A DNA stretch of 64,000 nt from Mitsuaria chitosanitabida ATCC BAA-476 = NBRC 102408 (GTDB lineage: Bacteria > Pseudomonadota > Gammaproteobacteria > Burkholderiales > Burkholderiaceae_C), in assembly GCF_001598255.1 (NCBI RefSeq), contig NZ_BCYP01000040.1:62001-126000 (forward strand), read 5' to 3'. Position numbers and translations under genes: made by a program. This document shows, one piece after another, positions 45,626 to 59,793 of the stretch (position 1 is its first letter; each line of letters begins with the position of its first letter). A model generated the notes under the pieces. That model searched no databases. It worked only from the letters and a program-made list of their open reading frames with translations, and had not been told where the DNA came from.

Positions 45626-46549
45626 TCAGGCCGTCTTCGCCAGTCCCCTTGCCTCCTCAATCGCCCCGTCCAGCGCGACCTCCTCCCGCCACCGCGCGGA
45701 CAGCGCGACAACCTCCCCGATCACCAGCAGCGCCGGGCTCATCATCCCTTCCCTGGCGACCGCACCGGCCAGTTCCTCCAGCGTCGTGAAGCACTCGCGC
45801 TGCCTCTGCGTATGCGCCGCGCTCACGATCACGGCCGGCGTCGCCGCCGCCAGTCCGCCCGCCTGCAGAGCCTTGGCGATCGCCGCGGCGCGCGTCAGGC
45901 CCATGTAGACCACCAGCGTCAATCGGCTGCGCGCCAGCGCCTCCCAGTCCGGCGCGATCCCCCCATCGCCGTTGTGCCCCGTCACGAAGGCCACGCCCGG
46001 CGTGCAGCGCCGATCCGTGACCGGCACGCCGACCGACGCCGGCGCGGCGATCCCCGCCGACAGGCCGTTGATCACCTCGACCTCGATGCCCGCCTCCCGC
46101 AGCGCGTCGACCTCTTCGCCGCCGCGACCGAACACGAACGGATCTCCGCCCTTCAGCCGCACCACGCGCGCCCCCGCCTTCGCCTCGCGAATCATCAGCT
46201 CGTGGATGAAGCGCTGTTCCGTCGATACGCAGCCCCCGCGCTTGCCCACGCGCAGCACGCGCGCGGTCGGAGGCAGGCACTCGAGCACGCGCGCATCGAC
46301 GAGGTCATCCGTCAGCACCACCTCCGCCTGCTCCAGGCGCCGCAGCGCCTTGACCGTCAGCAGCTCCGGATCCCCCGGCCCCGCGCCGACGAGCGCCACC
46401 CTCGGACGGGCCGGCTCGCGCGCCCCGTCCGCATCGCGCATGGCGCGGCTTCCGCGGCCAGCCTCGGAGCTGGCCGCAGGACGGGCATCCCGGCGGATCT
46501 CGGCGTCGGCGACGCGGCGGGCATCAAGGCGGGCATCCATCGTGTTCAT
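45626..46549 (-). CDS. cobA: Uroporphyrinogen-III C-methyltransferase (siroheme synthesis)
   Basis: A 307-residue SUMT enzyme, making precorrin-2 for siroheme, the cofactor of NirB. Motifs: VALVGAGPGDPELLTVKA, LKGGDPFVFGRGGEE, VINGLSAGIAAPASVGVPVT and TGHNGDGG. The first 50 residues are an Arg/Ala-rich extension. There is no CysG-type dehydrogenase/chelatase domain, so those steps must come from elsewhere. It is the last gene of the nitrate operon, overlapping nasA by ATGA. Confidence 0.92.
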   Translation of the reverse strand: MNTMDARLDARRVADAEIRRDARPAASSEAGRGSRAMRDADGAREPARPRVALVGAGPGDPELLTVKALRRLEQAEVVLTDDLVDARVLECLPPTARVLRVGKRGGCVSTEQRFIHELMIREAKAGARVVRLKGGDPFVFGRGGEEVDALREAGIEVEVINGLSAGIAAPASVGVPVTDRRCTPGVAFVTGHNGDGGIAPDWEALARSRLTLVVYMGLTRAAAIAKALQAGGLAAATPAVIVSAAHTQRQRECFTTLEELAGAVAREGMMSPALLVIGEVVALSARWREEVALDGAIEEARGLAKTA

Positions 46550-49347
46550 GTCGCTTCCTTCACTTCCTGGGAGACCGTCATCGCCGCCACCGCGGCGGGC
46601 GCCGCGTTCACGAGACGCCGCAGCGCCGGCAGGCAGGAGCCGCATTGCGTGCCGCAGCGCAGCTCGCCCTGCAAGCCCGCGAGGCGCTCTTCCGGCGATC
46701 CCGCCGGCTGTCGCTGGAGGCAGGCCGAGATGGCGTCCTCCCGCACGTTGAAGCAGTTGCAGACCTGCGGACTCGCGGGCGTGCCGGGTTGATCCGCGTC
46801 CGGCGCGAGCAGCCGCCGCCCGAAGGGCATCACCGGCGAGCGCTCGCGCCACAGCGCGTCGAGCCATGCCCCTTCGCTGCCCTCGCCCACGCGCAGCAGC
46901 GATTCCAGGCGCGCCTGCGCGCCCTCCCCGTCCAGCCGCAGCGAGCGGCTGCGTCCGCGCCGTCCATCGGCATACCGCAGCACGCCGACGCCATTGAGCC
47001 GCAGCACCGTCGACAGCGCCTGCACCACCGGCGCGGGGGGAGCCTCGGCGAACGCGAGCTCCAGGCTCCAGCCTTCGAACGCCTCCTGCGCCGGTCCCGG
47101 CAGGCAGCAGGCGTACTCGGCCTGATCCATCAGCACCCGCAGCTGGGCGCGCAGCGCGGCGCCCTCGCCCGGCCGCACCCAGGCCGCGCCAAAGACCCGC
47201 CACGGCAAGCGCACCGCCTCCACCGAGATGGCCGCGAACTTGAGCTCCGGCTGCCGCGCGTCCGGACAGAAGGCCGGCTGCGTGAGCGCATTGACGCCGA
47301 GCTGGCCGCGTCCGCCCAGGAACTCGCTGCCCCAGTGCATCGGCAGCCAGGCGCGCTGCGGGCCCACGCGCTCGTCCGCCCGCAGCGGCACGATCAGCGG
47401 CCCGCGCCGCGACTGCACCCGCACCAGCGCGCCCGGCTCCAGCCGCCGCCGCGCGATGTCCTGCGGATGCATGGACAGCGCCGGCGCCGGCTCGCCGGCG
47501 AAGAGCCGCGCCACCGTGCCGCTGCGGCTCATGCCATGCCACTGGTCGCGCAGGCGGCCGGTGTTCAGCGCGATCGGGTACTTCGCGTCCTGCGTCTCCG
47601 CCGGCGGCACGAAGGGCTTGGCGATGAAGCGCGCGCGGCCGTCCGCATGCGCGAACAGTCCGTCCTCGTAGAGCCGCGACTTGCCCGCGCTCGCGCCCTC
47701 GGGCCAGGGCCATTGCCGCGGCGCCTCCTCGATCAACGCGTAGCTGAGCCCACCGATGTCCAGATCCCGGCCGCGCGTCGCCTCGCGATGCTCGATCCAC
47801 AGCTGCTCGGCCCGCTCCCACGCGAAGAGGCTCGCCTTCCCCGGTCGCAGCACCGCTTCCATCCGCTGCGCGACGTCGCGCACGATGCGCCAGTCCGCGC
47901 GCGATTCGCCGGCGGGTGGCAGCACCGCGCGCACGCGGCTGATGCGACGCTCGCTGTTGGTGACCGTGCCTTCCTTCTCCGCCCAGGTCGTCGCCGGCAG
48001 CACGACATCGGCGAACTCCGCCGTCGCCGTGCCGGCGAAGGCCTCCTGCAGGATGACGAGCTCGCAGCGCCGCAGCGCCTCGCGCACCAGCGCCTGGTCC
48101 GGCAGCGACTGCGCCGGATTCGTGCACGCGATCCACAGCGCCTTGATCTCGCCGCGCGCCGCCGCCTGGAACATCTCCACCGCGGTGCGGCCGGGCCGCT
48201 CGGGCATCGCGTCCACGCCCCACAGCGCGGCGACCTCCGCGCGATGCGTCGCGTTGCCGGGGTCGCGATGACCGGGCAGCAGGGTCGCCATGCCGCCACT
48301 CTCGCGCCCGCCCATCGCGTTGGGCTGCCCGGTCAGCGAGAACGGCCCCGCGCCCGCGCGCCCGATCTGACCGGTCGCCAGATGCAGGTTGATCAGCGAG
48401 GTGTTCTTGGCCGCGCCGCTGCTGCTCTGGTTCAGCCCCATGCAGTACAGCGACAGCGTCGACGGCGACTGCGCGAACCACTGCGCGGCCTGCAGGATCT
48501 GGTCCTCCTTGAGCCCCGTGAGCCGCGCCGACTCGCTGGGCGTCATGCCCCGCACCAGCGCCTTGAGCGACGCGAACCCGGCCGTGTGCCGCTCGATGAA
48601 GGCGGCGTCGATCCACCCTTCCCAGATGCAGGCGTGCAGCATGCCGTGGAACAGCGCCACGTCGCTGCCGGGCCGCAGCGCCAGATGCAGGTCGGCGAAC
48701 TCCGCCGTCTCCGTGCGGCGCGGATCGACGACGATGACCTTCATGTCCGGTCGCTCCGCATGCGCCGCCTCGATGCGCCGGAACAGGATGGGGTGCGCCC
48801 ACGCGGTGTTGGCGCCGGCGATGAACAGGCAGTCCGTCCGCTCCAGGTCCTCGTAGCAGGTCGGCGGTGCATCCGCGCCCAGCGACTGCTTGTAGCCCAC
48901 CACCGCCGAGCTCATGCACAGGCGCGAGTTGCTGTCGATGTCGTTGGTGCCGACCAGCCCGCGCGCCAGCTTGTTGAAGGCGTGATAGTCCTCGGTCAGC
49001 AGCTGGCCCGAGACATAGAAGCCGATCGCCTGCGGGCCGTGCTGCGCGCGGATGGCCAGCAGCTGATCGGCGAGGCGCCGCGTTGTCGTGTCCCAGTCCT
49101 GCGGCTGCAGCGCTTCCTCGCGCGTGGGCCGCCAGGCCGGGCGCAGCAGGCGTTGCTCGCGCCTCACCAGCGGCGTGGCCGTCAGGTGCAGCGTCGAGCC
49201 CTTGGTGCACAGCCGGCCGAAGTTGGCCGGGTGGTCGGGGTCGCCGCGCAGGCCGACGACGCGCGAGTCCGCGCCCTCGCCCGCCGTCTCGATGAGCACC
49301 CCGCAGCCGACGCCGCAGTACGGGCAGGTCGATCGCGTTTCGGCCAT
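46546..49347 (-). CDS. nasA: Assimilatory nitrate reductase, catalytic subunit
   Basis: A 933-residue cytosolic molybdopterin enzyme reducing nitrate to nitrite. The N-terminal iron-sulfur motif is CPYCGVGCGV with a later LCTKG cysteine; Mo-bis-MGD blocks follow (GTNDIDSNSRLCMSSAV, TGQPNAMGGRESGGM). The end carries a BFD-like [2Fe-2S] motif (CNCFNV, then CGTQCGSC), as in NasA proteins that take electrons from a reductase or ferredoxin. The start at 49347 was chosen because it directly precedes the cluster; 28 further residues upstream would overlap nirD. Confidence 0.94.
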   Translation of the reverse strand: MAETRSTCPYCGVGCGVLIETAGEGADSRVVGLRGDPDHPANFGRLCTKGSTLHLTATPLVRREQRLLRPAWRPTREEALQPQDWDTTTRRLADQLLAIRAQHGPQAIGFYVSGQLLTEDYHAFNKLARGLVGTNDIDSNSRLCMSSAVVGYKQSLGADAPPTCYEDLERTDCLFIAGANTAWAHPILFRRIEAAHAERPDMKVIVVDPRRTETAEFADLHLALRPGSDVALFHGMLHACIWEGWIDAAFIERHTAGFASLKALVRGMTPSESARLTGLKEDQILQAAQWFAQSPSTLSLYCMGLNQSSSGAAKNTSLINLHLATGQIGRAGAGPFSLTGQPNAMGGRESGGMATLLPGHRDPGNATHRAEVAALWGVDAMPERPGRTAVEMFQAAARGEIKALWIACTNPAQSLPDQALVREALRRCELVILQEAFAGTATAEFADVVLPATTWAEKEGTVTNSERRISRVRAVLPPAGESRADWRIVRDVAQRMEAVLRPGKASLFAWERAEQLWIEHREATRGRDLDIGGLSYALIEEAPRQWPWPEGASAGKSRLYEDGLFAHADGRARFIAKPFVPPAETQDAKYPIALNTGRLRDQWHGMSRSGTVARLFAGEPAPALSMHPQDIARRRLEPGALVRVQSRRGPLIVPLRADERVGPQRAWLPMHWGSEFLGGRGQLGVNALTQPAFCPDARQPELKFAAISVEAVRLPWRVFGAAWVRPGEGAALRAQLRVLMDQAEYACCLPGPAQEAFEGWSLELAFAEAPPAPVVQALSTVLRLNGVGVLRYADGRRGRSRSLRLDGEGAQARLESLLRVGEGSEGAWLDALWRERSPVMPFGRRLLAPDADQPGTPASPQVCNCFNVREDAISACLQRQPAGSPEERLAGLQGELRCGTQCGSCLPALRRLVNAAPAAVAAMTVSQEVKEAT

Positions 49348-49360
49348 CGTGGCGCCCCGC

Positions 49361-49741
49361 TCAGCAGGCCACGCGGGTGCAGGGCCCGGCTTTGACCGGC
49401 GGCAGGTCGATGCCCACCGTGTCCAGCTCATGGCGGTCCAGCAGCACCTGACCGTCCTCGACCTTGACCTGGAACACGGGCGTGCGGCCCTCGTCGGGCT
49501 CGCGCGCGCAGCCGTTGTCCAGCGCGATGGTCCAGTTGTGCAGCGGGCAGGCCACCGCGTTGCCGAAGACGATGCCCTGACTCAGCGGCCCGGCCTTGTG
49601 GGGGCAGCGGTCCAGCAGCGCATGGACGCGATCGTCGGCGGTGCGGAACAGCGCCACTTGCGGGCCCTTCTCGCGGGACACGCGGCGCGAGCCCAGCACG
49701 GGGATGTCGGTGACGGCGCAGATGGTGATCCAGTGGGTCAT
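49361..49741 (-). CDS. nirD: Nitrite reductase small subunit NirD
   Basis: A 126-residue Rieske-like subunit of the NADH-dependent assimilatory nitrite reductase. The Rieske-type pairs are present: CPHKAGPLSQG and CPLHNW. It partners with NirB to form the enzyme. It is 11 bp after nirB and 13 bp before nasA. Confidence 0.93.
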   Translation of the reverse strand: MTHWITICAVTDIPVLGSRRVSREKGPQVALFRTADDRVHALLDRCPHKAGPLSQGIVFGNAVACPLHNWTIALDNGCAREPDEGRTPVFQVKVEDGQVLLDRHELDTVGIDLPPVKAGPCTRVAC

Positions 49742-49752
49742 GTCGTTCCTCC

Positions 49753-52254
49753 TCAACCCAGGACGCTGGCGACCGGCTCGAACTGGCGCACGTCCACCTG
49801 CGCCTTCGCGAACTCGAACCACGGATCCGGCTCCCCGTCGAGCGCATGCTGCAGCTCGGCCCACAGGGCCTGGCGACCCTCGTGGTCATCGAGGATGCGC
49901 CGCTTCACATGGTCCAGCCCGACGCGACCGACGTAATGCACGGTGCGCTCGAGGTACCAGCCCTCCTTGCGATACAGCTGCATGAAGGCGCCGGTGTATT
50001 CCATGACCTCCTCAGCCGTCTTGAGCTTCACCAGGAAGTGCGCGACCTCGGTCTTGATGCCGCCGTTGCCGGCGACGTACATCTCCCAGCCCGAGTCCAC
50101 GCCGATGATGCCGACGTCCTTGATGCCGGCCTCGGCGCAGTTGCGCGGGCAGCCGCTGACCGCGAACTTGACCTTGTGCGGCGCGTACATGCGCCACATC
50201 GCGCGCTCCAGATCCTTGCCCATCTGCGTGCTGTCCTGCGTACCCATGCGGCACCACTCGGAGCCCACGCAGGTCTTCACCGTGCGCAGCGCCTTCGCGT
50301 AGGCATGGCCGCTGGGCATGCCGATGTCGCGCCAGACGTCGACCAGATCCTCTTTTCGCACGCCCAGCAAGTCGATGCGCTGGCCGCCGGTCACCTTGAC
50401 CGTGGGGATCTTGTACTTGTCGACGGCGTCGGCAATCCGACGCAGCTCATCGGCGGTTGTCTCCCCGCCCCACATCCGCGGGATCACCGAGTAGGTCCCG
50501 TCCTTCTGGATATTCGCGTGACTGCGCTCGTTGATGTAGCGCGATTGCGGATCGTCCACCGCCTCCTTGGGCCAGGACGAGATCAGGTAGTAGTTCAGCG
50601 CGGGACGGCAGGTCGCGCAGCCGTTGGGCGTCTTCCAGTTGAGCCGCTCGAAGACGTCGCCCATCTTCACCAGATGTTCCTTGAAGATGGCGTCGCGCAC
50701 CTCCTGGTGGCTGAGCTCGGTGCAGCCGCAGACGGCCTTCTTCTTCGGCGTGGCCGAGTAGTCCCCGCCCGCGGTGAACATCAGCAGCTGCTCGACCAGG
50801 CCGGTGCAGGAGCCGCAACTGGCGCTGGCCTTGGTGTGCTTGCGCACCTCCTCCAGCGTGAACAGGCCCTTCTCCTTGATCGCCTTGCAGACGGCGCCCT
50901 TGGTCACGCCGTTGCAGCCGCAGACCTCGTCGCTGTCGTCCATCGCCGCGGCCTTGTTGTGGCCCTGGTGACCGACGTCGCCGATGTTGGACTCGCCGAA
51001 CATGAGCTTGTCCCGGATGTCGGCGATCTTGCGGCCCTCGCGCAGCAGCTTGAAGTACCAGCTGCCGTCGACGGTGTCGCCGTAGAGGCAGGCGCCGACC
51101 AGTTGATCGTCCTTGATCACGAGCTTCTTGTAGACGCCGGCGAAGGGATCGCTCATCACGATCTCCTCGGTGCCGTCGCCGCCCATGAAGTCGCCGGCGG
51201 AGAACAGGTCGATCCCCGTGACCTTGAGCTTGGTGCTGGTCTGGCTGCCCAGATAGCGGCCGATGCCGAACTGCGCCAGGTGATTCGCGCAGACCTTGCC
51301 CTGCTCGAACAGCGGCGCCACCAGGCCGTAGGCGATGCCGCGATGCGCGGCGCATTCGCCCACCGCGTAGATGCGGGGATCGGTGACCGTCTGCAGCGTG
51401 TCGGTGACGACGATGCCGCGATGGCAGTGCAGGCCGGCGCTTTCGGCCAGCGCGGTGTTGGGGCGGATGCCGGCGGCCATCACGACCAGGTCGGCGGGGA
51501 TCTCCTCGCCGTCCTTGAAGCGGACGGCCATCACGCGGCCATCCTTGTCGCCGATCAGCGCCTCGGTCTGCGCGCCCATGCGGAAGCGCAGGCCGCGCTC
51601 CTGCAGCGACTTGCGCAGCAGATCACCGGCCTGATCGTCGAGCTGGCGTTCCATCAGCCAGCCGCCGATGTGCACGACCGTGACCTGCATGCCGCGCAGC
51701 ATCAGGCCGTTGGCCGCCTCCAGGCCCAGCAGGCCGCCGCCGATGACGACGGCGTGCTGGTACTTGGTCGCCGCCTCGATCATCGTGTTGGTGTCGGTGA
51801 TGTCGCGGTAGCCGATCACTCCCTCGAGCTCCTTGCCGGGCACCGGCAGGATGAAGGGGTTCGAGCCGGTGGCGATCAGCAGGCGGTCGTAGTCGGCCAC
51901 GGTACCGTCGTCGGCGATCACCTGGCGCTTCACGCGATCGATCCTCGTGATGGTCTTGCCCAGGTGCAGCGTGATGCCGTGCTCCTCGTACCAGCTGAGC
52001 GGGTTGAGGATGATCTCGTCCAGGGTCTGCTCGCCGGCCAGCACCGGGCTGAGCAGGATGCGGTTGTAGTTGGGATGGTGCTCGGCGCCGAAGACGGTGA
52101 CGTCGTAGAGATCGGGGGAGATCTTGAGCAGCTCCTCCAGGGTACGGACGCCGGCCATGCCGTTGCCGACCATCACGAGCTTCATCTTCTTGAGCGGGAT
52201 CGGTGTGGTGGAGGCCGTCGCCGACAGCGGCGCGAGTTCGGTCGGGGCATTCAT
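49753..52254 (-). CDS. nirB: Nitrite reductase large subunit NirB
   Basis: An 833-residue NADH-dependent nitrite reductase making ammonium. The FAD part begins MVGNGMAGVRTLEELL; two BFD-like [2Fe-2S] domains follow (CGCNGVTKG..CGSC and CGCTELS..CATC). The siroheme/4Fe-4S ligands are CVGSEWC (CX5C) and CPRNC (CX3C). Siroheme needs the cobA gene downstream. The start overlaps the transporter stop (ATGA), with AGGAG at a good distance. Confidence 0.96.
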   Translation of the reverse strand: MNAPTELAPLSATASTTPIPLKKMKLVMVGNGMAGVRTLEELLKISPDLYDVTVFGAEHHPNYNRILLSPVLAGEQTLDEIILNPLSWYEEHGITLHLGKTITRIDRVKRQVIADDGTVADYDRLLIATGSNPFILPVPGKELEGVIGYRDITDTNTMIEAATKYQHAVVIGGGLLGLEAANGLMLRGMQVTVVHIGGWLMERQLDDQAGDLLRKSLQERGLRFRMGAQTEALIGDKDGRVMAVRFKDGEEIPADLVVMAAGIRPNTALAESAGLHCHRGIVVTDTLQTVTDPRIYAVGECAAHRGIAYGLVAPLFEQGKVCANHLAQFGIGRYLGSQTSTKLKVTGIDLFSAGDFMGGDGTEEIVMSDPFAGVYKKLVIKDDQLVGACLYGDTVDGSWYFKLLREGRKIADIRDKLMFGESNIGDVGHQGHNKAAAMDDSDEVCGCNGVTKGAVCKAIKEKGLFTLEEVRKHTKASASCGSCTGLVEQLLMFTAGGDYSATPKKKAVCGCTELSHQEVRDAIFKEHLVKMGDVFERLNWKTPNGCATCRPALNYYLISSWPKEAVDDPQSRYINERSHANIQKDGTYSVIPRMWGGETTADELRRIADAVDKYKIPTVKVTGGQRIDLLGVRKEDLVDVWRDIGMPSGHAYAKALRTVKTCVGSEWCRMGTQDSTQMGKDLERAMWRMYAPHKVKFAVSGCPRNCAEAGIKDVGIIGVDSGWEMYVAGNGGIKTEVAHFLVKLKTAEEVMEYTGAFMQLYRKEGWYLERTVHYVGRVGLDHVKRRILDDHEGRQALWAELQHALDGEPDPWFEFAKAQVDVRQFEPVASVLG

Positions 52255-53696
52255 GCGGCACGCTCCTGGGGGAAATGAAGACCCTCACCCCCGCCCTCTC
52301 CCGCAAGCGGGAGAGGGAGTTGACTGGGGATGGGGGCGGTGGCGGGGCGGGAGCCCGGAAGACCCTCTCCCCTGCCCTCTCCCGCAAGCGGGAGAGGGGG
52401 CAAGACGGGGGACAGGGGGGCGGTGATCGGGTGGGGAGTCGCGGGAGAGGTGGCGGGCGAAGTGGCGGGCGAGGTCGACTCGTCGACCACGTGGGCGCGG
52501 CCGCCATCGGTGGCCCAGGTGCTCGTCCAGCGGCGCTGCATCACGCGCAGCACGCCGAGCATCACGAGCGCGAAGCCGGCGAAGGCGACGAAGCCCCAGG
52601 CGTAGGTGCCGGCCGTCTGCTTGGACAGGCCCATCAGGTTGGGCACCGCGCCACCGCCGAGGGCGCCGATCTCGCCGATCATGGAACCCGCCACCGCGGT
52701 GGCCGCGGGCCAGCGCAGCGGCACCAGCTGGAACAGCGCGCCGTTGCCCGCGCCCAGACCGGCGAAGCAGATCACCAGCAGCAGCGTCGTCAGCGCGATC
52801 GAGCCGTTGGCCGGTCCGATCAGCAGCAGCGAGACGGTCACCACGCCCAGCACGGTGGTCAGCGCGTTGACGCCGCCCCAGCGGTCCGACAGCGCGCCGC
52901 CGACCACCCGCACCGCCGCGCCCATGAAGGCCGCCAGCATGGTCAGTTGCCCGGCGGCGACCTTGGAGACGCCGAACTGGTCGTGGTAGTAGGTCGGCAG
53001 GAAAGTGGTCAGGCCGATGAAGCCGCCGAAGGTCACCGCATAGAGCAGGCTGAAGGCCCAGCCGTCCTTCTCGAACAGGCAGGCGACGTGGTCGCGCAGG
53101 CCGGTGTGGCGTCCGACGTCGGGCGGCTCCTTGGCGAAGACGATCATCACCCCCATGGGCACGGCGATCGCGGCGGCCGCGATCGCGTAGACGCTCTGCC
53201 AGCCCAGCCACTGCGCCAGCGGCGGCGCGACCAGCACGGACACCGCGGTGCCGACGTTGCCCGCGCCGACCAGGCCCATGGCCAGGCCCTTGTACTTCGG
53301 CGGGTACCAGCCCGAGCCCAGCGACATCGCCACGCCGAAGCTGGCGCCGGCGATGCCCAGCAGCACGCCCATCGCGAGCAGGTCGTCGTAGCCGTCGACC
53401 ATGAAGTAGCCGTAGCTCATGGCCACGGCGATCAGCGCCATCTCCACCAGCGTCGCATTCTTCCTGCCGATGTACTGGGAGAGCAACCCCAGCGGGAATC
53501 GCATCAGCGCGCCGGCCATGATGGGGATGGAGAGCATCAGGCCCTTCTGCGCGGCGGTGAGCTGGTAGGCCTCGCTGATGAAGGGCGCGAGCGCGCCGTT
53601 CAGCACCCAGATGCAGCACGAGAACGCGAAGTACAGGAACGCGGCGCCGAGGGTCGGGGCGTGGCCTGATCTCAGGAAGGTGCGGAACGCTGCCAT
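52251..53696 (-). CDS. NarK/NasA-family nitrate/nitrite MFS transporter with REP-encoded tail
   Basis: A 481-residue MFS transporter, first gene of the nitrate operon. About 12 hydrophobic segments occupy residues 1-395; conserved blocks include GASFGVAMSLGSGWYPPKYK and GLGAGNGALFQLVPLRW, the NNP-family region. It should import nitrate. The C-terminal 80 residues are not transporter-like: a TSPATSPATSPAT repeat, then LPPLPLAGEGRGEGL and LPLPLAGEGGGEGL, which are translations of two REP-like elements read in frame. The stop overlaps the nirB start, so the tail is probably translated. A leader attenuator lies upstream. Confidence 0.92.
   Translation of the reverse strand: MAAFRTFLRSGHAPTLGAAFLYFAFSCCIWVLNGALAPFISEAYQLTAAQKGLMLSIPIMAGALMRFPLGLLSQYIGRKNATLVEMALIAVAMSYGYFMVDGYDDLLAMGVLLGIAGASFGVAMSLGSGWYPPKYKGLAMGLVGAGNVGTAVSVLVAPPLAQWLGWQSVYAIAAAAIAVPMGVMIVFAKEPPDVGRHTGLRDHVACLFEKDGWAFSLLYAVTFGGFIGLTTFLPTYYHDQFGVSKVAAGQLTMLAAFMGAAVRVVGGALSDRWGGVNALTTVLGVVTVSLLLIGPANGSIALTTLLLVICFAGLGAGNGALFQLVPLRWPAATAVAGSMIGEIGALGGGAVPNLMGLSKQTAGTYAWGFVAFAGFALVMLGVLRVMQRRWTSTWATDGGRAHVVDESTSPATSPATSPATPHPITAPLSPVLPPLPLAGEGRGEGLPGSRPATAPIPSQLPLPLAGEGGGEGLHFPQERAA
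52281..52400. repeat. Two REP-like elements inside the narK coding end
   Basis: Direct copies at about 52281-52320 and 52362-52400, each with CCCTCTCCCGCAAGCGGGAG as hairpin core. Translated as LPLAGEGRGEG-type tails of the transporter. In the mRNA they lie between narK and nirB and may slow decay. Confidence 0.8.
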
Positions 53697-53724: not shown

Positions 53725-53761
53725 AAAAAAGGCCGCGATCAGCACCGGGCTGGTCGTGGCC
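53725..53761 (-). terminator. Leader terminator of the narK-nirBD-nasA operon
   Basis: On the minus strand a 13-pair hairpin with two mismatches (GGCCACGACCAGC, loop CCGGT, GCTGATCGCGGCC) ends in six T. It lies 30 bp before the narK start, so transcription must pass it to make the operon: an attenuator. Stop/go control fits the ANTAR proteins nearby. Confidence 0.75.
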
Positions 53762-53802
53762 TTCAAGCGGTGCCGATGTCGCGGGACGACCTCGGCGGCG
53801 AT

Positions 53803-53874
53803 GACACCGCCGGGGCGGTGTCGGAGATCGCGGGGACGAGGCCCCGCGGGAGCGCGGCGCGTCGTTGCGCCACG
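53803..53874 (-). promoter_or_regulatory. Candidate ANTAR target hairpins in the narK leader
   Basis: Read on the minus strand: hairpin one (53853-53874) is CGTGGCGC-AACGAC-GCGCCGCG, an 8-pair stem with one wobble and a six-base loop with A1 and G4, as required by ANTAR RNA motifs. Four bases later hairpin two (53829-53848), CGCGGGG-CCTCGT-CCCCGCG, has a six-base loop without A1/G4. A third (53803-53822), GACACCGC-CCCG-GCGGTGTC, comes before the terminator. Confidence 0.6.
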
Positions 53875-54040
53875 GGCTCTCTTTCGCAAGTCGCGTGCCA
53901 GATGGCCGCGGTGCGGCGAGGTCGGCCGCCTCGCCGGCGTCGGCCGAGCACTGGACGGGCGATGGGCTTATGCTGCGACGCCCCCGCGCGGCGGCACGAT
54001 CCGTGCGCGTGGGATCGTGTGTCTTCCCTCTGTAGCGACC

Positions 54041-55417
54041 ATGTCCGAGCCGACCGCGCCCGCCGCCGCTGACGCCCTCTCCGCCGACGACGACCTGCCC
54101 CGCCGCGTGCTGCGGCTGGGCCCGGCGCCGCGTCCGGCCGCGGGCACGGGATCGGCCTCGCCGCACTGGATCGCGGCGTCCGTGCACCAGCCCGGACGCG
54201 ACAGCTTGGTGCGCGCCGCACAAGAACAGGGGGCGCAGGCGCTGCTGTTGATTCCGGATGAGACGGCGGTCGGCGGCGATGCCGGGCTGGGCTTGGCCAC
54301 GGGCCAGGCATCGGCCTCGGGGAGCCCCGGTTCGACGGGCGCGGCGCTCGATGGCTGGCTGGATGCGCTGGAGGCCGCGGCGCTGGCCCTGCCGGTCGTG
54401 TGCGTGGCGCCGGGCGGCACGGCGGCGCAGCGGCGCCGGGCGGCCGGGCTCGGCATCCAGGTCTGGCTGGCCTCGATGCCCGACCCCGACGCGCTGCATT
54501 GGCAACTCGGCTGGGCCGTCGCGCTGAACGAGCGCCAGGCCGCGCTGCGGGCGCAACTGGACGACCGCAAGTGGACCGAGCGCGCGAAGGGCCTGCTGAT
54601 GTCGGCGCGCGAGCTCGACGAGGACAGCGCCTTCCGTCTGCTGCGCGAGGCGGCGATGCACGCGCATCTCAGGCTGGGTGAGGTGGCGCGATCGGTGGTG
54701 CATTCGGCGCAGCTGGCGGAGGCGGTCAACCTCGCCGGCCAGCAGCGGATGCTGAGCCAGCGCCTGGTGAAGCTGATGGCGCAGCGTGCGGCCGGCATCG
54801 AGCCCAAGCGCGCGAAGACGCTGCAGGATGAGTCCTGCGCACGTGTGACGGCGAATCTGGCGAGATTGCCGGGCTTGCTGTCGGCGCAGGCGGCGCCGGG
54901 GCCGGACCTGGAGGGCATCCTCGAGGCCTGGAGGCGCTTGGAGCCGCTGCTTGTGGGGAAGCCCAGCGTGGAGGCGCTGGTCGCGGCGGACGATGCGGCG
55001 CAGGACCTGCTGGGCCGGTCCGATGCGCTGGCGACGGCGCTGGCCGCCAGCGGCGCGGGCAAGCCGCTGCAGGTGGTGAACCTCTGCGGTCGGCAACGGA
55101 TGCTGAGCCAGCAGCTGGCCAAGGAAGCGCTGCTGGCGGACCTGCTGCCAGGACGGGATCCGGGGGGGCTGCTCGACAGCCTGGATCGCTTCGCGGCGGG
55201 ACTGGCGGCGCTGGAGGCATCGCCGCTGTCGAGCGACGCGATCCGCGCGCTGCTCGCGGAAGTGAGCGCGGAGTGGCTGCGATTGATGCGGAGCTTGCGC
55301 GACGCCCATGGCCGCGAAGCGGCCGGCGGCCTGGCCCGCAGCAGCGAGGTGCTGCTCGATCGGCTGGATCTGCTCACCGGGCACTATCAGCAGAGCTTGC
55401 AGATCATCTTGGGGTGA
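54041..55417 (+). CDS. Pseudo-receiver/ANTAR/double PilJ nitrate-sensor antiterminator
   Basis: A 458-residue soluble protein. Residues 42-160 look like a degenerate receiver (ALLLIPDET, LPVVCVAP, IQVWLASMPD). A coiled coil leads to an ANTAR domain (168-221; DRKWTERAKGLLMS, DSAFRLLREAAM), the RNA-hairpin-binding module. Then come two PilJ-like repeats with NLAGQQRMLSQRL (230-242) and NLCGRQRMLSQQL (347-359), the type that binds nitrate in NarX/NarQ. No membrane helix. The domain order is opposite to NasR (sensor then ANTAR). It is divergent from the narK operon, so it most likely senses nitrate and releases the terminator in that leader. It lacks a phosphorylatable Asp in the receiver, as far as can be seen. 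Confidence 0.85.
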   Translation: MSEPTAPAAADALSADDDLPRRVLRLGPAPRPAAGTGSASPHWIAASVHQPGRDSLVRAAQEQGAQALLLIPDETAVGGDAGLGLATGQASASGSPGSTGAALDGWLDALEAAALALPVVCVAPGGTAAQRRRAAGLGIQVWLASMPDPDALHWQLGWAVALNERQAALRAQLDDRKWTERAKGLLMSARELDEDSAFRLLREAAMHAHLRLGEVARSVVHSAQLAEAVNLAGQQRMLSQRLVKLMAQRAAGIEPKRAKTLQDESCARVTANLARLPGLLSAQAAPGPDLEGILEAWRRLEPLLVGKPSVEALVAADDAAQDLLGRSDALATALAASGAGKPLQVVNLCGRQRMLSQQLAKEALLADLLPGRDPGGLLDSLDRFAAGLAALEASPLSSDAIRALLAEVSAEWLRLMRSLRDAHGREAAGGLARSSEVLLDRLDLLTGHYQQSLQIILG

Positions 55418-57355: not shown

Positions 57356-58579
57356 TCAGGCGCGGACCTTGAAGCTGTCGGCGTACCTGGCGGGATCCTT
57401 GGCATCCCAGACCACGCCGTCGAAGAGCTTGGAGCTGCGCATGGAGTCCTTGGGCACCGCGACGCCCAGCGCCGAGGCCGCCTGGCGGTAGAGGTCGATC
57501 TGGTTGATCTGGCGCGCGACGCCGAGGTAGTCGGGGTGCTCCTTGATCAGGCCCCAGCGCTTGTGCTGCGTCAGGAACCACATGCCGTCCGACAGCCAGG
57601 GATAGTTCACCAGCCCGTCGTTGAAGAACTTCATGTGGTTGGGATCGTCCCAGGTCTTGCCCAGGCCGTTCTGGTAGCGGCCCAGGATGCGCTGGTTGAT
57701 CGCGTCCACGCTGGTGTTGACATAGGCCTTGTCGGCGATGGTCTCGGCCATCTTCTGCTTGTTGGACAGGCTGGCGTCGATCCAGCGGCTGGCCTCCAGC
57801 ACCGCCATCACCACGGCGCGCGCCGTGTTGGGGTACTTCTTGACGAAGTCGCCGGTGGTGCCCAGCACCTTCTCCGGATGGTCCTTCCAGATGTCCTGCG
57901 TGGTCGCGGCGGTGATACCGATGCCGTCGATGATGGCCCGGTGGTTCCAGGGCTCGCCGACGCAGAAGCCGTCCATGTTGCCCACCCGCATGTTGGCCAC
58001 CATCTGCGGCGGCGGCACGGTGATGACCTTGGCCTGCTTCATCGGATTCACGCCCGCCGCGGCCAGCCAGTAGTAGAGCCACATCGCGTGCGTGCCCGTG
58101 GGGAAGGTCTGCGCGAAGGTGTAGTCGCGCGGGGCCTTGGCCATGACCTTGGCCAGCGAGGCCCCGTCCACCGCGCCCGCGTCGGCCAGCTTCTTCGACA
58201 GCGTGATCGCCTGGCCGTTGTTGTTCAGCGTCATCAGCACGGCCATGTCCTTCCTGGGACCGGCCACGCCCAGGTGCACGCCGTAGACCAGGCCGTAGAG
58301 GACATGGGCCATGTCGAGCTCGCCGTTGACCAGCTTGTCCCGCACGCCGGCCCAGGAGGCCTCCTTGGTCGGGACGATCCTGATGCCGTACTTCCTGTCG
58401 AAGCCCAGCGCCGCGGCCATCACCACGGAGGCGCAGTCGGTCAGCGGGATGAAGCCGATGCGGACCTCCTCCTTCTCCGGCTTGTCCGAGCCGGCGGCGA
58501 AGGCGCCCCCTCCCGGCAACGCGGACAACCCGCCCCATGCCGCGCCCGTGGCGAGCAGCTGACGACGCTCAGCGCTCAT
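57356..58579 (-). CDS. nrtA: Nitrate ABC transporter substrate-binding protein
   Basis: A 407-residue periplasmic binding protein. An ERRQLLATGAAWGG start suggests a Tat signal, common for NrtA-type proteins. Segments VRIGFIPLTDCASVVMAAAL, FPTGTHAMWLYYWLAAAG, and NMDGFCVGEPWNHRAI are typical of the nitrate-binding family. Two starts are possible: 58579 (AAGGAGGG upstream) and 58606 (GGAGG upstream), 9 codons longer. The first keeps the Tat motif near the N-terminus. Confidence 0.92.
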   Translation of the reverse strand: MSAERRQLLATGAAWGGLSALPGGGAFAAGSDKPEKEEVRIGFIPLTDCASVVMAAALGFDRKYGIRIVPTKEASWAGVRDKLVNGELDMAHVLYGLVYGVHLGVAGPRKDMAVLMTLNNNGQAITLSKKLADAGAVDGASLAKVMAKAPRDYTFAQTFPTGTHAMWLYYWLAAAGVNPMKQAKVITVPPPQMVANMRVGNMDGFCVGEPWNHRAIIDGIGITAATTQDIWKDHPEKVLGTTGDFVKKYPNTARAVVMAVLEASRWIDASLSNKQKMAETIADKAYVNTSVDAINQRILGRYQNGLGKTWDDPNHMKFFNDGLVNYPWLSDGMWFLTQHKRWGLIKEHPDYLGVARQINQIDLYRQAASALGVAVPKDSMRSSKLFDGVVWDAKDPARYADSFKVRA

Positions 58580-58671
58580 CAAACCCTCCTTGGAACCGAG
58601 ACTCATGCAGGACCTCCAGATGGCGCGATCGGGACGCGCCGTGCTGTTCGACGACGGATGGAGCCGGAAAC

Positions 58672-58729
58672 GACAAAGGCGCCGCGATCGGACCCGCGCG
58701 CTGCGCGGGCTCGATCGGACGCCTTTGTC
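58672..58729 (-). terminator. Leader terminator of the nrtABD operon
   Basis: A long imperfect hairpin: outer arms GACAAAGGCG/CGCCTTTGTC, then CGATCG paired to CGATCG, and an apical CCCGCGC/GCGCGGG stem. On the minus strand it ends CGCCTTTGTCGTTT, a loose T-run, 92 bp before the nrtA start. Its inner GCCCGCGC can pair with the 3' arm of the upstream AACGGC hairpin, giving exclusive structures. Confidence 0.55.
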
Positions 58730-58746
58730 CGGACCTTGCTGGTGCG

Positions 58747-58768
58747 GCCCGCACGCCGTTGTGCGGGC
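58747..58768 (-). promoter_or_regulatory. Candidate ANTAR target hairpin in the nrtA leader
   Basis: On the minus strand: GCCCGCAC-AACGGC-GTGCGGGC, a perfect 8-pair stem and a six-base loop with A1 and G4, nearly identical to the loop in the narK leader. It lies 17 bases before the terminator. A second hairpin upstream (58804-58830) has a five-base loop and does not fit the rule. Confidence 0.6.
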
Positions 58769-58845
58769 TTGACCGGGGAGTCGCAGGAAGCGTGCCAAGA
58801 CGCGTCGAACCGGCGCTCCCGGCTTGCGACGACCCTCACCCCCCG

Positions 58846-59053
58846 CCCTCTCCCGCTCCGCGGGCGAGGGGGCCGTACGGCGCTCGATGGCACGACGCCC
58901 TCCCCCAATCCGCAGGCGGGGGGACCGCATGGCGCTCGATGGCACGACTCCCTCTCCCGCTCCGCAGGCGGGGGGACCGCATGGCGCTCGATGGCACGAC
59001 TCCCTCTCCCGCTCCGCGGGCGGGGGGGCCGCATGGCGCTCGATGGCACGACT
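58846..59053. repeat. Four 52-bp tandem repeats made from a REP-like element
   Basis: CGCTCGATGGCACGAC recurs at 58881, 58933, 58985 and 59037, exactly 52 bp apart. Four full units (from 58846, 58898, 58950 and 59002) each contain a CCCTC..CCGC..GGCGGGGG hairpin core. The block is bounded by half REP-like elements at 58832 and 59054-59090. It separates the NasT-type gene from nrtA; units differ at only a few bases. Confidence 0.9.
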
Positions 59054-59142
59054 CCCTCGCCCGCTTGCGGGAGAGGGTTGGGGTGAGGGTCTTCGGGCTC
59101 CCACGCACTGTCTCGCGGCGCCGCTGCGCCGATCCGGTGCGT

Positions 59143-59793
59143 TCAGCCCCGCAGCAGGTCGTGCGCGTCGATCACGCGCCGAGCGACCTGCGCAATCGGC
59201 TCCCCCCGATCCATCGCCAGCTTGCGCAGACGCTGATAGGCCTGCTCCTCATCCAGCCCCTGCTCGCGCATCAGGATGCCCTTGGCCCGGTCCACCTGCT
59301 TGCGCGACGCCAGCTGCGCCTGCGCCTTGCTGAGCTCCTCCCGCAACGCCAGGTCCTGCTCGAACCGCGCGATGGCCACATGCAGGACCGGCGCCAGACG
59401 CCCCGGCTGCAGACCCGCCACCACATAGGCGCTCACCCCCGCCTGGATCGCGCGCCGCATCGGTCCCTGATCGCCGTCCTCGGCGAAGACCACGACCGGA
59501 CGTGGCATCCGCGCGGACAGCGTGGCCAGGTTCTCCAGGGTGTCGCGGGTGGGGGACTCCGCATCGACGATCACCACGTCCGGCCGCAGGCGCAGCACGC
59601 AGTCGTGGATCAGCGTCGCCTGCTCGACCACGCCGACCACCTCGCAGCCCTGGCGCGCCAGCGCGTCGCGCAGCAGGTCGACGCGATGCGCGCCGTCATC
59701 GATCAGCAGCACCCGCAGGCCGGGCGCGGCCGGACCCGCGCCGTCGTCGGCGGACGCGGGCGGCGGGCTGGCGGGTGCGGGCGGAGCGGTCAC
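59143..59793 (-). CDS. nasT: NasT-type response regulator: receiver plus ANTAR
   Basis: A 216-residue antiterminator. After a Pro/Ala-rich start, residues 26-140 are a receiver (VLLIDDGAHR, phosphoacceptor D77 in VVIVDAES); a coiled coil and ANTAR domain follow (155-212; RKQVDRAKGILMREQGLDEE and AYQRLRKLAMDRG). NasT proteins bind paired hairpins in nitrate operon leaders and are held back by NasS in other bacteria; no nasS is seen, though NrtA may stand in. It is upstream of nrtA on the same strand. Start uncertain: a GTG at 59793 is proposed; the frame is open to 59955. Confidence 0.85.
   Translation of the reverse strand: MTAPPAPASPPPASADDGAGPAAPGLRVLLIDDGAHRVDLLRDALARQGCEVVGVVEQATLIHDCVLRLRPDVVIVDAESPTRDTLENLATLSARMPRPVVVFAEDGDQGPMRRAIQAGVSAYVVAGLQPGRLAPVLHVAIARFEQDLALREELSKAQAQLASRKQVDRAKGILMREQGLDEEQAYQRLRKLAMDRGEPIAQVARRVIDAHDLLRG

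Follow-up and report, generated by a model that had tools for sequence, protein, structure and literature searches.

The ANTAR antiterminators are the closest described systems to the leader RNA analysed here. Excerpts of PMC3369931 describe how an ANTAR dimer binds hexaloops with A at position 1 and G at position 4 (A1/G4), the second hexaloop competing with the terminator, and how deletion of the second hairpin abolished binding of ANTARcc. For EutV, parts of PMC8934654 state that the dimer is in contact with a single hexaloop at any time and binds each of them alone with similar affinity; the first hairpin (P1) was there proposed as a recruitment hairpin, and the existence of single hexaloops as natural targets was left open. 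In the case of NasR, an excerpt of PMC7496416 reports that read-through of the nasF leader in vitro rises from 5 to 52% with nitrate.

In this regard, a 64,000-nucleotide stretch of the Mitsuaria chitosanitabida genome (the window, in what follows) contains an operon for nitrate and nitrite assimilation whose leader, just upstream of narK, resembles these systems. It shares with the leaders of EutV/eutP, NasR/nasF, AmiR/amiE and NasT an A1/G4 hexaloop with a C-G or U-G closing pair and, with the two-hexaloop ANTAR leaders as a group, a downstream terminator, a linked ANTAR gene and a connection with nitrogen metabolism. The narK leader differs from this group, however, in lacking the second hexaloop and in having a P1 and a terminator that are not mutually exclusive. 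A further related case would be the NalA/NasT system of Pseudomonas, where nirBD is likewise controlled by an ANTAR protein through attenuation in the leader (PMC12830290, in excerpt), with a NasS-NasT pair in place of the one-piece ANTAR-PilJ protein and the single hexaloop found here. With moderate confidence, we propose that the narK leader is a single-hexaloop variant of ANTAR attenuation, in which the divergently encoded ANTAR-PilJ protein would act from P1. We set it apart as a variant and not as a member of the class because two of the two-hexaloop features that we looked for fail, namely a second hairpin with an A1/G4 hexaloop, and a second hairpin overlapping and excluding the terminator, as seen in the nrtA leader of the same locus.

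The narK leader and its surroundings

The narK leader and its flanks span positions 53900-53697 of the minus strand, where the order is σ54-type site, P1, hairpins 2 to 4, terminator and narK (Table 1). The -24/-12 consensus of σ54 promoters is TGGCAC-N5-TTGC, and a promoter of this type is predicted from the element before P1, also written TGGCACgcgacTTGC. Counting both strands, the window has only two sites of the strict form TGGCA[CT]N5[TC]TGC, one preceding narK and the other nrtA, and an A1/G4 hairpin follows each of them, 11 and 14 bases behind, respectively; A1/G4 hairpins with at least seven pairs (at most one G-U) number only seven in the window, both strands included. A previous sequence-only reading had placed before narK a terminator, an AACGAC hairpin about 90 bases earlier and a second hairpin with a six-base loop 4 bases after it, all of which are present on the minus strand: the distance from P1 to the terminator is 88 bases, and hairpin 2, with its CCTCGT loop, starts 4 bases after P1. 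The six T claimed for the terminator were also found. In the minimum free energy structure its stem has 14 pairs, interrupted by two internal mismatches, instead of the 13 pairs proposed, and hairpins 3 and 4, the σ54-type site and the nrtA leader were missing from that list of otherwise real elements.

Table 1. Features of the narK and nrtA leaders and of the neighbouring genes in the window
Feature	Position	Strand	Basis
σ54-type -24/-12 site, TGGCACGCGACTTGC (narK leader)	53886-53900	minus	sequence match to TGGCAC-N5-TTGC
P1, 8-bp ANTAR-type hairpin, hexaloop with A1 and G4: CGTGGCGC[AACGAC]GCGCCGCG	53853-53874	minus	fold, pattern, covariation
Hairpin 2, CGCGGGG[CCTCGT]CCCCGCG, not an ANTAR hexaloop	53829-53848	minus	fold, relatives
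Hairpin 3, loop CCCG, leader spacer hairpin	53803-53822	minus	fold, relatives
Hairpin 4, among nine aligned leaders only in the window	53772-53796	minus	fold, alignment
Intrinsic terminator, U6, counterpart in 10/10 leaders of this type	53725-53764	minus	fold, relatives
narK, MFS nitrate/nitrite transporter, first gene of the operon, ATG at 53696	52251-53696	minus	
nirB	49753-52254	minus	
Open frame containing nirD (start not fixed)	49361-49864	minus	
nasA-type assimilatory nitrate reductase with BFD-like domain	46546-49431	minus	
Divergent regulator, 458 residues: degenerate receiver-like domain, long helix, ANTAR, two PilJ-type four-helix bundles	54041-55417	plus	
σ54-type site, nrtA leader	58783-58797	minus	second strict site of the window
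P1 of nrtA leader, loop AACGGC	58747-58768	minus	
P2 of nrtA leader, CGGAC[AAAGGC]GTCCG, overlapping the terminator	58716-58731	minus	
Terminator of nrtA leader, mutually exclusive with P2	58668-58729	minus	fold
NasT-like protein with receiver and ANTAR domains, encoded by the window's second ANTAR gene	59143-59793	minus	
Putative nrtA, nitrate ABC-transporter binding protein	57356-58606	minus	

The 261 nt between 53700 and 53960 fold 4 SD better than shuffled versions, none of 200 shuffles being as good. Ensemble pair probabilities are 0.99-1.0 for the upper seven pairs of P1 (0.23 for the lowest), 0.96-0.99 for hairpin 2 and 0.44-0.84 for the lower terminator stem, and P1 and the terminator are compatible in the predicted fold. 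The presence of an intrinsic terminator between the promoter element and the first gene supports the earlier claim of an attenuated leader. No Rfam family matched the narK leader at E values up to 5 (only chance matches elsewhere). Downstream of nasA, an overlapping open frame of the same operon encodes a uroporphyrinogen-III methyltransferase domain. Mitsuaria sp. PDC51 and Roseateles noduli are close named relatives (93-95% for narK over 240 residues).

Two repetitive elements were also observed in the region. The 3' part of narK (52294-52400) contains two copies of the palindromic repeat CCCTCTCCCGCTTGCGGGAGAGGG, through which the frame reads as a LPLAGEG-type peptide. For most relatives the match ends near residue 402, and the window's protein exceeds it by about 80 residues. 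The other element lies at 58846-59065, between the nasT gene and the promoter of nrtA, where a 52-base unit containing a palindrome similar to the narK 3' repeat is repeated in tandem about 4.2 times.

P1 among relatives

A homologue search, in which the four best candidates per genome were scored, found the divergent regulator in at least 77 of 399 genomes of the family. From 80 named loci and further genomes, we obtained 146 loci with the regulator divergent from narK or nirB, and removal of 17 identical leaders left 129 distinct ones (106 of narK and 23 of nirB), which share kinship (42 are Variovorax-like) and among which the same genome may recur. A strict P1 pattern, which itself requires A or G at loop position 1 and G at position 4, matches 107 of the 129 leaders at 9-20 bases behind a σ54-like site, the distance being 12 bases in 55 of the 107; the other 22 leaders were omitted from the leader comparisons, including the counts on the regulator tree. 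Position 1 of the loop is A in 84 of these leaders and G in 23, which makes the rule loose with respect to A1. Moreover, a scan blind to the letters, with loops of 3 to 9 bases allowed, was applied to 117 leaders (12 of the 129 lack the σ54-like pattern and were left out), and the strongest stem behind the σ54-like site was hexalooped in 78, with A1 in 73 and G4 in 74 of those hexaloops; 24 tetraloops were also obtained, many of them the same hairpin with one extra possible pair.

Stem covariation among relatives had been set beforehand as a test, and P1 passes it. From 106 leaders anchored on the promoter only, 53 representatives were aligned without structure, and in the result 85.3% of the P1 cells are paired, compared with 68.2 ± 1.4% in shuffles (none of 500 as high), and the covariation score is 0.535 versus 0.244, with controls slid along the alignment reaching at most 55.7% of paired cells. 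The consensus fold recovers the six inner pairs of the helix. With a first hairpin whose six-base loop, AACGAC, carries A1 and G4, with covariation and with its recurrence behind σ54-like sites, P1 is, as far as comparison of sequences can tell, a genuine ANTAR-type element, as had been claimed for the first hairpin. The expectation that the same loops would be seen before narK in relatives held for P1, while the CCTCGT loop varies.

A P1 covariance model run on the genome of the window, where it scored the best 150 of 15019 first-look candidates, gave the narK leader as best match (E 0.008) and 15 others with E values of 0.18-7.6; these matches did not include the nrtA leader, and none of the nine of these 15 that were read as loci has a σ54-like site nearby. 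As a separate observation, Variovorax-type narK leaders (e.g., L040) show a conserved GCACC-N5-GGTGA dyad after the 3' arm of P1, located behind the promoter and overlapping P1, which resembles an NtrC site.

The divergent ANTAR-PilJ regulator

The gene divergent from the operon encodes, as originally indicated, an ANTAR protein (residues 168-220, PF03861, 60 bits, the curated cut-off being 27.3). In the Pfam scan the ANTAR domain is followed by two PilJ stretches, and the scan gave no receiver match for this protein and no NIT domain, a domain that the same scan does detect in a Pseudorhodoferax protein (L083). In an AlphaFold2 model built with 29 relatives (mean pLDDT of 88.6), the N-terminal domain is small and of the alpha-beta type, and the rest comprises a long helix at residues 149-190, the ANTAR helices and two bundles. 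The best PDB matches of this model in a fold search were those of EutV, RNA-free (E 1.5e-4) and RNA-bound (E 2.1e-4), followed by NasR and PilJ entries with E values of 0.07-0.26. In sequence comparison, EutV, Rv1626 and NasR were matched by the ANTAR part, and 6gcv, which we take to be the nitrate-binding PilJ domain of McpN, by the second bundle (E 0.003). A close-up view of the seven RNA-contact residues of EutV indicates that five are kept or conservatively replaced, with K143, R168, M172 and R177 retained and K147 changed to Arg, and that N173 and R175 are His in the regulator. R168 and M172 do not vary across 121 distinct relatives, and the position of R177 holds Arg in 105 of them and Lys in 13.

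Like the NIT-ANTAR protein NasR of Klebsiella (4akk, E 0.07), the regulator is a one-component nitrate-sensor candidate fused to ANTAR, but its sensor is of the PilJ type and comes after the ANTAR domain, with the degenerate receiver-like domain before it and no NIT match. It also shares with the PilJ sensor of McpN a P-box-like GxQRMLSQ motif, present in both bundles of the regulator, whereas its PilJ part is fused to a putatively RNA-binding ANTAR domain and does not belong to a chemoreceptor. Based on the predicted fold, the protein is a candidate for a one-piece nitrate-sensing antiterminator.

A predicted two-hexaloop leader before nrtA

A second ANTAR gene, nasT, and a second leader are found about 5 kb away. 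Judged by its predicted folding, the region 58668-58797 before nrtA is a textbook two-hexaloop ANTAR attenuator: the full length folds into the terminator and a truncated form into P2. Its P1 loop is like that of narK (AACGGC versus AACGAC). A P2 with an AAAGG-type loop is present in 43 of the 46 nrtA leaders read, and 41 of these 43 also have P1, the linker between them being of 10-16 bases in 40 of the 41 and of 36 bases in one, whose P1 is probably misassigned. The nrtA leader of L083, outside those 43, shows by eye a P2 with loop AACGGC; in this genome (Pseudorhodoferax sp. Leaf267) a NIT-ANTAR, NasR-like gene (L083:1279-2490) lies upstream of nrtA and is the only ANTAR gene found. Regarding other components in the genome of the window, only one NrtA/NasS-like gene was found at E 1e-5 when a NasS partner was sought, the putative nrtA itself, and a further ANTAR gene (G000:C34:21714-21833) is a weak match of 28.5 bits.

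Two sides of the regulator tree

In a tree of 129 regulators, built with column 178 left out and rooted at the midpoint, a branch with SH-aLRT support of 100 splits the family into 47 and 82 proteins. A second hexaloop occurs 30-35 bases after P1 in 32 of the 34 P1-containing leaders on the side of the 47, where 1.1 would be expected, and in none of the 73 on the side of the 82, which is that of the window and where 3.4 would be expected, both expectations coming from shuffles that preserve letters only. For this count, loops with A or G first and G fourth were sought 24-40 bases after P1, allowing one mismatch or bulge; under a stricter rule of five unbroken pairs, 25 of 107 leaders are of the two-hexaloop kind, all belonging to the same side. 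From their sequences, genomes that fall with the window in this tree retain the two-hexaloop motif before nrtA, together with a single hexaloop before narK.

The residue after the position of EutV K143 follows the same split, with Trp in 78 of the 82 regulators on the window's side and in 1 of 47 on the other, where it is mostly Leu, Val or Met. A looser scan of 95 bases found a second hexaloop in 3 of 71 leaders of Trp-bearing regulators (3.6 expected from shuffles of the same kind). We considered this Trp as the cause of the loss of P2, but such a causal link lies beyond the comparative test, since there is one main split only and the test on independent pairs is powerless. We would suggest, tentatively, that the ANTAR-PilJ branch with Trp next to K143 might have dispensed with the second hexaloop and might stop termination from a single one, without competition between P2 and terminator.

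The leaders of the window's side are themselves diverse. A terminator was found in nine leaders of the window's branch and in L008, while the Variovorax- and Pelomonas-type leaders have P1 and no clear terminator; since none is evident there, P1 may have another output in these leaders. Among the two-hexaloop leaders, many of the Rhizobacter type (e.g., L016) keep CATGTGCC or a similar sequence after P2 and lack a U-tract. Pairing between CATGTGC and the GCACATG at the start codon of narK is possible in L016, so that control of narK may be translational in this case.

Leaders of the window's type

Ten leaders (L004, which is the window, L109, L028, L029, L030, L115, L116, L006, L005 and L008) combine P1 with a terminator of the form GGCCnCGnCnAGC...GCTnGnCGCGGCCTTTT, and nine of them, all but L008, make up the entire branch of the window in the regulator tree. 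The terminator stem varies among them with compensation by eye (e.g., CGAGC/GCTCG and CAAGC/GCTTG). Between P1 and the U-tract, no A1/G4 hexaloop with at least three pairs was found in nine of the ten leaders, the window included; the tenth, L109, has a weak one of three pairs, and L006 has at the terminator arm a four-pair hairpin with loop TCAGGC, which has G4 and not A1.

Other arrangements were considered and rejected. The AAGGCC sequence at the 5' arm of the terminator, comparable to the AAAGGC loop of nrtA, could have been a hidden P2 loop, but it lacks a three-pair stem except in L109. Pairing of P1 or hairpin 2 with the 5' arm of the terminator, as an antiterminator, appears by eye in single leaders and in some truncated folds, and is not conserved. 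A constant spacing between P1 and terminator is likewise not observed: the linker is of 28 unstructured bases in L005 and L008, and of 59-91 bases in the other eight, where it holds two or three hairpins that leave 11-31 bases unpaired. Compared with shuffles of the letters, this linker figure lies above the mean in all eight, by at least 2 SD in four of them, ten leaders being too few for a rule. From these sequences, no ANTAR partner hairpin is evident in the narK leader, hairpin 2 not being one either.

Proposed mechanism and alternatives

In the mechanism that we propose, the narK-nirBD-nasA operon would be transcribed from the σ54 promoter, with NtrC as the presumed activator. The control of nirBD by NalA in Pseudomonas reportedly depends on σ54 and NtrC. 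By default, transcription of the leader would end at the intrinsic terminator just before narK. When nitrate or nitrite is present, the divergent ANTAR-PilJ protein would bind the nascent RNA at the P1 hexaloop, close to the 5' end, and the bound protein would let the polymerase through the terminator. In two-hexaloop leaders the second hexaloop overlaps the terminator; lacking it, the protein held at P1 would itself oppose the terminator, which we propose because no antitermination hairpin was found and P1 and the terminator coexist. The terminator starts 28 bases after P1 in the two leaders without extra hairpins, L005 and L008, and the extra length elsewhere is mostly taken up by hairpins, which is no more than suggestive. 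Some data speak against a single-hexaloop mechanism. In excerpts of the published work, EutV needs both hairpins in vivo (PMC3369931) and NasR is about 12-fold weaker on one hairpin than on two (PMC7496416). Moreover, the Variovorax- and Pelomonas-type leaders, the looseness of A1, the TCAGGC hairpin of L006 and the loss of N173 and R175 in the regulator all fit this reading poorly, as does L083, where a narK P1 coexists with NIT-ANTAR as the only ANTAR gene found.

A first alternative, which we regard as rather unlikely, is that NasT acts on the narK P1 instead of the ANTAR-PilJ protein, or that both do, as could happen with two ANTAR proteins in one locus and two P1 loops that are alike. However, P1 goes together with the divergent gene. 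Of 79 named loci that could be used (one more, L051, being excluded as too short), 67 carry the divergent regulator, and P1 was called in 61 of these; among the 12 that do not carry it, P1 was called in 1 (Fisher p 1.5e-8, with kinship not corrected). The six misses (L032, L033, L038, L042, L093 and L095) have P1-like hairpins by eye that failed the pattern for stem or promoter, and the exception without a divergent regulator is the already mentioned L083. Conversely, in L064, a 3.3-Mb MAG that may be incomplete, the one ANTAR gene found is NasT-like, the P2 of nrtA is present and the P1 of narK is absent. This pattern of co-occurrence points to ANTAR-PilJ for narK and NasT for nrtA, and we favour the ANTAR-PilJ protein at narK because P1 tracks the divergent gene and because of what is seen in L064.

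A second possibility is that P1 is a capture site without antitermination, within an sRNA that sequesters the ANTAR protein or as an element acting on translation, Rho or RNA stability, the terminator being constitutive. The compatibility of P1 and terminator in the fold would suit such a role, and so would the Variovorax- and Pelomonas-type leaders, with P1 and no evident terminator; as described in an excerpt of PMC8934654, EutX, an sRNA that sequesters EutV, has an extra single hexaloop. We find this quite unlikely, given that L008 and all nine members of the window's branch retain P1 together with the terminator, and that the nrtA leader of the same locus appears to be a plain attenuator.

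It also seems improbable that a protein dimer reads P1 together with hairpin 2 as an odd-looped partner, as the sequence-only reading had supposed in spite of its rule-breaking CCTCGT loop. The hairpin does lie only four bases after P1, its stem is kept, with compensation by eye, in eight of the ten leaders, and five of these eight stems can be read with a six-base loop. Its loop letters vary freely, however (CCTCGT, CTCCGG, TTCCGG, CTCAGG and CTCCGC), and three of the eight leaders have loops of only four or five bases. Furthermore, L005 and L008 lack hairpin 2 despite having P1 and terminator, and hairpin 2 does not overlap the terminator, so its formation would not block termination. With a variable loop and two leaders where it is absent, hairpin 2 was therefore rejected as the ANTAR partner. 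Finally, that the inverted repeat of P1, which lies some 9-20 bases behind the promoter element, is a DNA operator for a transcription factor and not an RNA hairpin is highly improbable, as letters change on both sides of the stem while pairing stays (79 of 422 cells), and the loop is more constant than the stem and fits the known ANTAR rule.

Implications

The accepted mechanism of the ANTAR proteins requires two hexaloops, the second of them competing with the terminator, and the narK leader lacks that second one; genome surveys that require two hairpins would overlook it. Its regulator is a nitrate-sensor candidate, and neither this ANTAR-PilJ order of domains nor a single-hexaloop ANTAR leader was found described in the open-licence PMC literature. 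One family of regulators appears to be divided into a two-hexaloop and a one-hexaloop branch and, with leaders of one and two hexaloops about 5 kb apart and two ANTAR proteins in one genome, the question of whether a single hexaloop is a natural target becomes directly testable in this organism.
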